In this document: piece after piece, positions 34,401 to 36,777 of the stretch
Position numbering within the stretch: position 1 is the first letter of the stretch
Layout of the letters: every line of letters starts with the position of its first letter
Assembly: GCA_015832175.1 (NCBI GenBank)
Contig: WJXW01000002.1
Span: 4,278,001-4,342,000 of the forward strand
Direction: 5' to 3'
Source of the DNA: Paraphaeosphaeria minitans
Taxonomy: Eukaryota; Ascomycota; Dothideomycetes; Pleosporales; Didymosphaeriaceae
DNA length: 64,000 nt
The notes under the pieces: generated by a model
Databases searched by the model: none
What the model was told of the DNA's origin: nothing
What the model saw: only the letters and a program-made list of their open reading frames with translations
Made by a program: the position numbers and the translations under genes

Positions 34401-35255
34401 ATGGCTTAAAGTAGACGGTAATTTCTCCTCCTCCTCCTTCACTCTCGACTAAAGCGAGTCGATCGCAACCCGCAACGACGCGTTCTCGTGCAAAAGGGCC
34501 ACTTCTTGGTGAGAAGAGGGAAAGGTTTTATATTGTATAACAGGTTGATGACGCGAAGCAATATCGCGTGATTCAACGGACATAATAGACTGCGGCCAAG
34601 GCCCCGTATCGAATAAATAGATGCGCTACTAGGAGTTACATATACTTTGAACCAGCCGCGAACAGACTGCTGTCTGGGTGGACACTGGCGAATGGATTCG
34701 ATGTAATTTCTCTGGAACGTTTTGGTAATGAATCAGTTGAAACAAGGCTTGGACATTTTTCACGGAGCATGGTAGGTTTTGTCAAACAGTTATTGAATTT
34801 GAAATGGGAAAGTTACTGCGGTGTTACTATTTTCGGTGACATGGGCTTCTGTATCAGCTTCAAACGTGCTGGAACACGTACACGGAATCGCAATGGTTTC
34901 ACTTGAAGTGGTGTTATTGTTGTTGTTGTTGAGGGGGATGTCATGTGCACTCTTGAGTCTTCGGAATCTCGTAGGCTCGACTTAAAGTTGGTAGAGGTGG
35001 TGTCAGAGAGGTGGACCTGCCTTTGCTGTGATGGGTGTGAGTGGCGAAGTGTGTTCAAACAACAGTGGGATGCCTCTCGGTAAAAAAGACCCACCAGCAA
35101 CACCTTTTGTTCTAGAGCTCGGTGCCCCACTTGAAGCTTGATGAAGTAGAATTGGAAGATAAGCCCTCAACGCCTACGGCATAATACTCTGTGAGTCATA
35201 TGTTTTCATCCACATATATCCGAAATTTTATAAATTTTCCACCAAATCATCCAAC

Positions 35256-35403
35256 GGTGAGATGGCCGAGTTGGTTATGGGTAAGTTGAATTCCTATTCG
35301 GACATCTCCGCAGTAACTGATATCCACCAAGCGCCAGGTTCAGGATACTGAATCACTATTCCTGGTCACGAAAGTGGCGTGGGTTCGAATCCCACTCTCA
35401 TCA
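35256..35403 (+). tRNA. tRNA-Leu(CAG) with anticodon-loop intron and an extra D-arm insertion
   Basis: A full cloverleaf can be assembled once two insertions are removed (82 nt mature). Acceptor GGTGAGA (35256-35262) pairs with TCTCATC (35396-35402), discriminator A at 35403. The A box TGGCCGAGTTGG and B box GGTTCGAATCC are intact. The anticodon stem CCAGG/CCTGG (35334-35338 with 35361-35365) carries anticodon CAG at 35341-35343. A 15-nt intron (35345-35359) lies one base 3' of the anticodon and contains CTGA, complementary to TCAG, as in canonical tRNA introns. The variable arm CAC-GAAA-GTG is of leucine type. The second insertion, 35281-35331, splits the 3' strand of the D stem. A T9 run at 35440-35448 is a candidate Pol III terminator. 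Confidence 0.85.
35281..35331 (+). other. 51-nt intron-like insertion in the tRNA D arm
   Basis: It starts GTAAGT, contains TAACTGAT 12-15 nt before the end, and ends CCAAG, like a typical short fungal spliceosomal intron. Excising it joins TTATGG to CGCCAGG and restores the D stem GCC/GGC. One G at each border makes the exact cut ambiguous by one base. Confidence 0.7.
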
Positions 35404-35439
35404 CTATCGTCTACTCTAAGAGTTGTCTTCGGGAGATTC

Positions 35440-35448
35440 TTTTTTTTT
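35440..35448 (+). terminator. T9 run, candidate Pol III terminator
   Basis: Nine T residues 36 nt downstream of the tRNA-Leu 3' end. Confidence 0.6.
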
Positions 35449-35664
35449 GCCCAGTCGCGGTGTGCGGCGTGTGGGCTGAGGGAATCGTGGACAGCTTATC
35501 GATAGCGAGCTTCCCCGCCAACATTTTTTGACTCGGGGCCTCTCTGCTCCAACACACTTACCCAACACTTACAACGCACTACTCAGTTTCTCCCTTGACA
35601 CACGGGTCTTCCCCTCCAATACCGAACGACTTGGCGGCTTCTGGTCGTGTTTTCTTTTTCCACC

Positions 35665-36777
35665 ATGCCGCCAAAGCCCGCCTCTTTGCGCGCCCTCCTC
35701 GACCTCACCTCCACAACCCTCACCCTCCTCACGCATTTCCAGTCCTCGCTCGCCCCCACCGCCACAGCTGACGCCTCTGTCCCGCCGCCGCCGAACTCCC
35801 TCCAGGCCCTCAAAGCCTGCACCTCGCTCCTGAAATCGCACACGACGACGCTCTCGCTGCTTCTCCTCACCCCGCCGCTAACACCCAGCGCGATAATCAC
35901 AAAGATTGGGGATGTGAGCTCGGGCCCGTTGGCGGGGCTGGTCGGCGCGGCGGTCGCGGAGGGTGAACTCGGCGACCTCATGCAGGCGGAGGTCAAGATC
36001 CAGGTGCGCAGGTTGCTGGGGGCGTGGGGGGACGTCGTGGGGTGTGTGGCGAGACTTGCGGAGAGGAGGAAGAAGCTTGAAGATGAGAATGGGGGTGGGG
36101 CGGCCAAGGGGAAGAAGGACGAGGGGCCGACCGAGGGCGAGAGGCAGGCCGTGCTTGCTGCAACCGGGGTTGTCTGGGAGGCGTGCGATGCGCTGGTCAA
36201 GCTCTGCGATGGGGGGATTGCGGGGCTGGTGGTTCGCAAGGCGGAGGAGTGGAGGAGCGTGCTGTTGGATGCAGTGCAGGAGTTGAAAGAGTGGGGAGAA
36301 GACGTGGACCAGGAAGATGATGAGGAGGACGGCAGTGGTGGAGAGTTTGGGGATGAAGATGACATGTTTGGGGCGGCGAACAGGCTCGGGAAAGAGGACA
36401 AAGATTTGAAAGAAGTGCTGGACAAGAGCGTGAAGAAGCTCAAGATGGTCGGCGTGCTGTATCTGGCGCTGATCAAGAGACGGCTAAAGACCTTCCCAGC
36501 CGTTCTGCCAGCGGTTGCAGCGACTGCTGTGGGACACAAGAATCCTATGACGACGCTGGAAGAGCTTATGAAGTTCATAAAGTCGATCCCGGAGCAGGTG
36601 GACGACCTGGCGAGCGCATTCTACGACCTCGACGAGGACGAAGCGAAGACGATGCTGGACAAATGTTGCAGAGAAGCGAAGAGTGCTGCTAGTCTGGTCA
36701 AGCAGGATTGGTCGGGCAATGAGGACGAGTTTACGGCATGGTCCACGAAGTGGGAGGACGCTTTCAACGAACAATGA
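35665..36777 (+). CDS. GCIP/CCNDBP1-like (cyclin-D1-interacting) protein
   Basis: A single-exon gene of 370 residues opening at CACCATG (good fungal start context). The helical layout and motifs fit the Grap2/cyclin-D-interacting protein family: an N-terminal helix bundle (LRALLDLTSTTLTLLTHFQ; ALKACTSLLKSHTTTLS), an acidic linker (QEDDEEDGSGGEFGDEDDMF), then a C-terminal bundle (KEVLDKSVKKLKMVGVLYLALIKRR; PEQVDDLASAFYDLDED; LVKQDW). In animals GCIP is a helix-loop-helix-like regulator of cell-cycle transcription; fungal members are largely uncharacterised. The large minus-strand frame over this gene is antisense shadow. The tRNA-Leu lies 260 bp upstream in the same direction. Confidence 0.78.
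   Translation: MPPKPASLRALLDLTSTTLTLLTHFQSSLAPTATADASVPPPPNSLQALKACTSLLKSHTTTLSLLLLTPPLTPSAIITKIGDVSSGPLAGLVGAAVAEGELGDLMQAEVKIQVRRLLGAWGDVVGCVARLAERRKKLEDENGGGAAKGKKDEGPTEGERQAVLAATGVVWEACDALVKLCDGGIAGLVVRKAEEWRSVLLDAVQELKEWGEDVDQEDDEEDGSGGEFGDEDDMFGAANRLGKEDKDLKEVLDKSVKKLKMVGVLYLALIKRRLKTFPAVLPAVAATAVGHKNPMTTLEELMKFIKSIPEQVDDLASAFYDLDEDEAKTMLDKCCREAKSAASLVKQDWSGNEDEFTAWSTKWEDAFNEQ

Follow-up and report, generated by a model that had tools for sequence, protein, structure and literature searches.

The 51-nt insert that splits the D stem of a tRNA-Leu(CAG) gene is very probably a U2-type spliceosomal intron within a Pol III tRNA gene, removed by the spliceosome besides the work of the tRNA endonuclease. 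The gene would be one of at least 18 of this kind in the genome. The evidence is the anatomy, signals and positions of the inserts, the comparison of paralogous genes and the copy counts, all read from DNA sequence. We use "window" for the whole 64-kb stretch of DNA that was analysed and in which the tRNA-Leu(CAG) gene lies.

The tRNA-Leu(CAG) Gene and Its Two Insertions

The Rfam model RF00005 matches the window gene end to end (35256-35403, + strand) at 34 bits, with a gathering threshold of 29. The match contains a large insertion in the D arm and another in the anticodon loop. ARAGORN called no tRNA in the whole 64-kb window and missed the unspliced form of the gene; the spliced form is called as tRNA-Leu(cag). 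The features of the locus are as follows.

35229..35234, + strand: TATA-like element TATAAA, at -27 (read from the sequence)
35256..35403, + strand: tRNA-Leu(CAG) gene, unspliced (Rfam RF00005, 34 bits, model positions 1-71)
35263..35274, + strand: A box TGGCCGAGTTGG, intact, upstream of the 51-nt insert (box test, 0 mismatches)
35281..35331, + strand: spliceosomal-type intron of 51 nt in the 3' strand of the D stem, GT..AG (GTAAGT...CCAAG)
35281..35286, + strand: 5' splice site GTAAGT, identical in 9/18 introns
35317..35321, + strand: branch-site-like CTGAT, with the A at 35320, 11 nt before the intron end
35329..35331, + strand: 3' splice site AAG (YAG in the remaining 17/18 introns)
35341..35343, + strand: anticodon CAG (ARAGORN on the spliced sequence)
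35345..35359, + strand: ordinary tRNA intron of 15 nt at 37/38 (ARAGORN i(39,15) on the spliced sequence)
35382..35392, + strand: B box GGTTCGAATCC (box test, 0 mismatches)
35440..35448, + strand: nine-T run, likely Pol III terminator (read from the sequence)

With its A box, its B box and the T9 at 35440, the gene appears to have the features of a functional nuclear tRNA gene. A preliminary description of the locus had proposed a tRNA-Leu cloverleaf with a 15-nt anticodon-loop intron, which the RF00005 match and the ARAGORN call on the spliced form bear out, and a 51-nt D-stem insertion beginning with GTAAGT and ending in AG, which is found exactly at 35281-35331. It had also suggested running tRNA models with and without the insert, and ARAGORN calls Leu(cag) only once the insert is removed. 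The branch site that it named, TAACTGAT, does contain CTGAT (35317-35321); we have narrowed the site to CTGAT, the motif that also fits the other 17 genes. The splice signals of this intron are weaker than in most of the 18, with CTGAT rather than CTAAC and AAG rather than YAG.

The insertion site corresponds to tRNA position 24/25, numbered by hand, as are the positions in all genes discussed here. Removal of 35281-35331 creates the junction TTATGG/CGCCAGG, as in three intron-free Leu(AAG) paralogs, and the comparison with these paralogs shows 1 mismatch in 24, which is the anticodon base. The paralogs were recognised through the T arm of the window gene, which recurs at five other places with one mismatch. 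Three of the five are the Leu(AAG) genes without an insert, and they read TTATGGCGCC, the same as the spliced sequence of the window gene. Exact removal thus rebuilds the D stem, as had been claimed. The sequence shared with these paralogs and the similar inserts in 17 further tRNA genes of the genome show that the feature is not a chance one. Another Leu(AAG) gene, on contig C2, carries a different 50-nt GT-AG insert one base earlier than that of the window gene. In the second Leu(CAG) gene, on contig C10, the insert is 50 nt long, lies at 10/11 and has CACTAAC ahead of CCAG.

The Leu tRNA genes share a similar 3' trailer before the T run, CGTCYRCTC and then CGGGA (window 35404-35439; loci L023 and L025-L027). 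The adjoining gene in the window (ORF 35647-36777) encodes a cyclin-D1-binding-protein-1-like protein. The named relatives that match it best come from Paraphaeosphaeria sporulosa (89% identity) and Karstenula rhodostoma (85%), which points to a Didymosphaeriaceae-like fungus of the Pleosporales.

Interrupted tRNA Genes Across the Genome

We surveyed the genome (47.45 Mb, 30 contigs) for tRNA genes by an RF00005 search, by patterns that join a B box to a T run, and by direct searches, and then read the loci. The first RF00005 genome search, in which 62 of 1307 candidates were scored, recovered among the 18 interrupted genes the initiator tRNA-Met (iMet) gene of contig C1 and part of the Leu(CAG) gene of C10; the window gene was absent. 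A bare B-box pattern was no better than its control (160 vs. 158 matches). Patterns requiring a B box and a downstream T run gave 106 vs. 12, 36 vs. 8, 43 vs. 15 and 42 vs. 21 matches, counts in which a single T arm is entered repeatedly where the T run is long. For the 106-match pattern the survey covered 100 places among the matches listed, of which C5:2309075, C11:1376638, C13:1491899, and C14:251608, with a T arm or 3' end that is not tRNA-like, were left out. From the three other pattern sets (36, 43, and 42 matches) only places resembling tRNA 3' ends were read.

The resulting catalogue, a hand list checked for distinct places, holds at least 99 distinct tRNA genes, of which 18, at loci on 12 contigs, have inserts outside 37/38. 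The other 81 have by eye no insert outside the anticodon loop. The count of 99 retains L095, a likely degenerate Ser gene, and was made after dropping mitochondrial-type tRNAs (L058, L061, and the L096 region), the long tRNA-like loci L105, L133, L129, L123, and L146 and two in L118, L073 with its odd anticodon loop, and L164, which has a 3' half only. The catalogue lacks His(GTG), Val(AAC), and Arg(TCT) and is thus incomplete; the missing genes may be interrupted in ways that the patterns miss.

The long tRNA-like loci (L105/L039, L133, L129, the two in L118, L123, and L146) measure 115-220 nt and have large anticodon-region inserts, anticodons that are hard to assign and, in most, similar D arms; they are possibly orphan tRNAs or tRNA-derived elements. 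The mitochondrial-type tRNAs (L058, L061, and L096) form a cluster at C3 2839700-2853400 on an otherwise nuclear contig, either a mitochondrial insertion or a joined contig. L164 (C1:3121000-3121230) consists of the 3' half of a tRNA-Ser(AGA) and a terminator, and no 5' half was recognised in the 231 nt. The 5S rRNA genes are dispersed and, unlike the tRNA genes, without introns: 28/28 matches are 120-121 nt long, in a search that scored 47 of 2502 candidates and in which an interrupted 5S gene would score low. An intron-bearing iMet was also sought in one viral_contigs scan, with no match.

Insert-bearing genes, as a fraction of those found, number 2/2 for Leu(CAG), 1/4 for Leu(AAG), 1/1 for Leu(TAA), 3/3 for iMet, 2/2 for Trp, 1/1 for Val(TAC), 1/2 for Val(CAC), 2/3 for Pro(AGG), 1/2 for Pro(TGG), 1/2 for Ala(CGC), 1/2 for Arg(TCG), 1/2 for Thr(CGT), and 1/5 for Asp. 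The insert sites are 5/6, 10/11, 15/16 (two families), 18/19, 20/21 (two), 21/22, 23/24 (two), 24/25, 25/26, 38/39, 46/47, and 52/53. Counted by isoacceptor and site, these make 15 combinations, and the 12 tRNA positions involved are spread over the acceptor stem, D arm, anticodon loop, variable loop, and T arm. None of the 18 inserts is at 37/38, the closest being that of the iMet of C1 at 38/39. ARAGORN, applied to the spliced sequences, reports a second intron at or near 37/38 in 13/18 insert-bearing genes, about as often as it reports an intron in the other genes (66/81).

An assembly or sequencing artefact is conceivable for the window case taken alone. The same signals and the exact restoration of a tRNA at 18 separate loci on 12 contigs speak against it, and we regard this explanation as having practically no chance of being right.

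Splice Signals

The 18 introns are 49-57 nt long and all are bounded by GT..AG. The 5' sites are GTAAGT in 9, GTGAGT, GTACGT, and GTAAGC in 2 each, and GTAAGA, GTATGT, and GTTAGT in 1 each; 17/18 end in YAG, the window intron being the exception. CTNAY is present in 18/18 with its A 9-13 nt before the end. When the A was allowed to lie 9-16 nt from the end, 2000 shuffles had the motif in 2.05 of 18 introns on average and in 7 at most; the stricter CTAAY occurs in 15/18 introns (shuffle mean 0.63, maximum 5). Since the choice of intron boundaries was visual, more weight rests on the comparisons with paralogs below than on the GT-AG counts.

The preliminary description had likened the insert in size and signals to the mRNA introns of the window. 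An ab initio mRNA-intron scan of the window and larger loci gave 15 candidates vs. 3 in a reversed-sequence control, and 10/15 are 46-59 nt long, near the length of the tRNA inserts. Its criteria were GTNNG, CTNAY close to the 3' end and a length of 42-89 nt, and just 2/15 candidates start with GTAAGT; the scan therefore supports the likeness in length more than that in motifs, the signals being partly built into the scan. Taken together, the inserts appear to have what a U2-type intron would need: GT-AG ends with a U1-like 5' site, the branch distance, the length of mRNA introns, and exact restoration of the exons.

Could the inserts instead be cut by a tRNA endonuclease of relaxed specificity, of the bulge-helix-bulge (BHB) type as in archaea or Cyanidioschyzon, and not by the spliceosome? 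BHB introns outside 37/38 are known in tRNAs of archaea and some algae, red algae included, and resemble the present introns in lying in the D arm, T arm, and variable arm (PMC3978253); the algal and archaeal cases are covered by two reviews (PMC3978253; PMC3400036). BHB introns are defined by RNA structure and cut by an endonuclease, whereas the introns here have GT-AG ends and a branch site. That 18/18 have GT-AG ends, with a branch motif at a nearly constant spacing, is something that a BHB mechanism neither requires nor predicts. A BHB test had little power to discriminate and was given no weight: the full 4-bp central helix at the exact boundaries was found in 0/18, but canonical introns were no different from shuffles either, and with shifts allowed a score of 4 was reached by 3/18 inserts vs. 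6/66 canonical introns and 11% of shuffles. We judge cutting by a relaxed endonuclease to be very unlikely.

Spliced Sequences and Intron-Free Paralogs

ARAGORN finds a tRNA in 18/18 spliced sequences, with the expected isotype in 16; the spliced Val(TAC) and Thr(CGT) are parsed as other than the expected isotype. Of the unspliced sequences, 10 gave no call, 6 were assigned a wrong isotype and 2 were assigned correctly. Ten genes could be compared at the spliced junction with an intron-free paralog, and 7 have 0 mismatches over the 17-24 nt compared. The other 3 are the window gene with 1 mismatch, Arg(TCG) with 2, and the Leu(CAG) of C10 with 4.

The three iMet genes have introns at 38/39 or 46/47, each site is empty in the genes that lack that intron, and splicing of the three yields one identical 72-nt product. 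The two Trp genes likewise yield one identical 84-nt product. In the Trp, iMet, and Pro(AGG) paralogs the spliced sequences are 100% identical and the introns differ. Identical exons with differing introns are consistent with selection acting on the exons and the splice signals; gene conversion could be an alternative or added source of the exon identity. The shared signals of the 18 genes, the intron-free paralogs and the identical spliced iMet and Trp products strongly support the suggestion of the preliminary description that the insert looks spliceosomal.

Are the Interrupted Genes Needed?

A genome search with the iMet gene of C1 returned three loci, all interrupted, and one with a Trp gene returned two, both interrupted. 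The fungus requires both iMet and tRNA-Trp. Because it does, the introns of these genes must be removed, unless intact copies were missed by the assembly or the search. For Leu(CAG), genome and T-arm searches found no intact gene. A genome DNA search with the C10-type Leu(CAG) gave its own locus alone and no further copy; it also missed the other Leu genes and so is not very sensitive. Leu(CAG) alone is no proof of need, since the genome also has a tRNA-Leu(UAG) gene free of such an intron, whose product could read CUG as well.

These results bear on the view that the interrupted genes are pseudogenes killed by insertion while intact copies elsewhere supply the tRNAs; a dead gene was among the options of the preliminary description, which had looked to several intact Leu(CAG) copies elsewhere, together with a lack of spliced RNA, as support for it. 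Insert-free genes do exist for Leu(AAG), Asp, Ala(CGC), Arg(TCG), Pro(AGG), Pro(TGG), Thr(CGT), and Val(CAC), and four of the interrupted genes have displaced or spoiled A boxes (see below). Against this, no intact iMet, Trp, or Leu(CAG) gene was found in the genome. All the genes found for these three tRNAs carry such introns, which makes a dead gene unlikely. The spliced sequences of the iMet, Trp, and Pro(AGG) paralogs are identical, and GT, CTNAY, and AG are kept at similar spacing in 18/18, which is not expected of dead genes. We therefore give the pseudogene explanation very little credence.

Relationships Among the Introns

The introns might also all derive by copying from a single introner-like element with tRNA genes as its target. 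Introner-like elements have been reported from Dothideomycetes, and this counts in favor of the idea, as do the similar sizes of the introns at varied sites and the shared start, GTAAGTTCAA, of three of them. Among the 150 pairs of introns that are not at the same site, p ≤ 0.01 was obtained in 5 (1.5 expected) and p ≤ 0.05 in 17 (7.5 expected), with p values from shuffles that preserve the splice signals. The most alike of these pairs is the intron of the Leu(CAG) of C10 with that of the Trp of C5, at 0.77. No near-identical pair, however, exists among all 153, and the family of near-identical copies that an introner-like insertion (an option in the preliminary description) calls for was not seen. 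The mean similarity of the 150 pairs is 0.641 vs. 0.613 for fixed-end shuffles and the maximum is 0.774 vs. 0.714. Genome-wide searches, covering three of the 18 introns (those of the window gene, the iMet of C1, and the Trp of C5), are also unfavorable to it: the window locus hit Leu tRNA loci only, and the iMet and Trp genes hit their own gene families only. A single introner-like source is improbable, if somewhat less so than pseudogenes or a relaxed endonuclease.

Introns at the same site are a separate matter. The pair in Pro(AGG) has a similarity of 0.80 (p 0.003 vs. shuffles), the pair in Trp 0.70 (p 0.02, marginal), and the pair in iMet 0.69 (p 0.33). By sequence, common descent is clear for Pro(AGG) alone, marginal for Trp, and not apparent for iMet. 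Introns at different sites have little in common except their splice signals, though weak similarity is a little more frequent among them than among shuffles, and a distant common source is possible for a few introns. Pseudogenes, an artefact, and a family of near-identical introners were thus rejected on the iMet, Trp, and Leu(CAG) copies, the 18 loci, and the pair similarities, respectively.

Pol III Promoters and Terminators

The A box is intact and in place in 14/18 unspliced genes, in a test that searches every unspliced gene over its first 95 nt and reports the best site. In Arg(TCG) the A box is completed by the first G of the intron. The T arm is wholly downstream of the intron in all of the 18 except Asp(GTC), in which the B box GGTTCGATTCC is completed by the last G of the intron. 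B-box values of the box test must be read with care for iMet, where the test in most cases reported a site other than the true GATCGAAAC, and in the case of Pro(TGG), where the mature value is spurious. T runs of five or more are absent from the 18 introns; one intron has a run of four.

The A boxes of four genes are displaced or imperfect. Val(TAC) has 1 mismatch, and Leu(TAA) has 2 as counted by eye (the test reported an unrelated site). In Thr(CGT) and the Leu(CAG) of C10 the intron either precedes the A box or interrupts it, and the best match to an A box lies about 50 nt downstream of the usual place. Pol III initiation at these four genes is uncertain; their transcription may begin from a TATA-like element upstream, or their expression may be low.

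Comparison With Known Introns

Spliceosomal introns occur in the rDNA of lichen-forming ascomycetes. These are likewise in a non-mRNA gene, but the product is a Pol I rRNA and not a tRNA. In a full-text search, mainly of the open literature (subscription papers and preprints fall largely outside it), we found no spliceosomal introns in nuclear tRNA genes. The nearest precedents are the introns of U6 and U3; a 2017 paper on U3 names these two as the only small, structured RNAs for which frequent interruption was known at that time (PMC5832005). The U6 snRNA of fungi is alike in having a spliceosomal intron within a short structured Pol III RNA, and the mRNA-type U6 intron is reported to be spliced in fission yeast (PMC10484740). 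The present case differs in its tRNA host, in the many loci and 12 positions, and in the second intron at or near 37/38 in 13/18 genes. Fungal U3 snoRNA introns are described as having GT-AG ends and an RCTRAC branch site and as common in Pezizomycotina (PMC5832005). They cluster in one stem-loop of one RNA, whereas the tRNA introns are at 12 positions. Canonical 37/38 introns, like those described here, are in tRNA genes and are removed from pre-tRNA, as we infer for the present introns. None of the 18, however, occupies this position, and spliceosomal signals are present in every one. For eukaryal pre-tRNAs, splicing is described as the work of an endonuclease and a ligase, not of transesterification (PMC3400036).

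Proposed Pathway, Origin, and Significance

We propose the following pathway for the window gene, based on its anatomy. The gene would be transcribed by means of its internal A and B boxes and its terminator. In the nucleus, U1 would recognise the pre-tRNA at GTAAGT and U2 at the CTNAY motif, and the 51-nt intron would be excised in two transesterifications, with the D stem restored. Removal of the 15-nt intron at 37/38 would come next, by the tRNA-splicing endonuclease and ligase, although the order of the two events could be otherwise. Removal of 37/38 introns by an endonuclease and a ligase is the known pathway. The iMet and Trp tRNAs could not be made without spliceosomal removal, as every gene found has such an intron.

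The introns were presumably gained many times, given the 15 isoacceptor-and-site combinations at 12 positions. Most of the genes keep a 37/38 intron, which makes gain in DNA or in unprocessed pre-tRNA the more likely manner of gain. A finished tRNA that took up the intron by reverse splicing and was then copied back would have no 37/38 intron, which makes this route less likely. We consider it likely that iMet, Trp, and several other tRNAs of this fungus depend on the spliceosome, that 13 of its tRNA genes are spliced by two unrelated machineries, and that the introns were gained repeatedly and mostly spared the Pol III boxes.

In textbooks, tRNA splicing is the work of an endonuclease and a ligase at 37/38, and spliceosomal splicing is that of mRNA and of U6 and U3. 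If the present interpretation is true, this boundary between tRNA and spliceosomal splicing would be removed and translation would be tied directly to the spliceosome. In the paper on tRNAscan-SE 2.0, the search for non-canonical introns appears to be described for the archaeal mode only, and the string "spliceosom" is absent from its main text (PMC8450103). Genes of this kind could therefore have been missed in other fungi. The presence of intron-bearing and intron-free paralogs in one genome would make intron gain directly testable in short, fully mapped RNAs.
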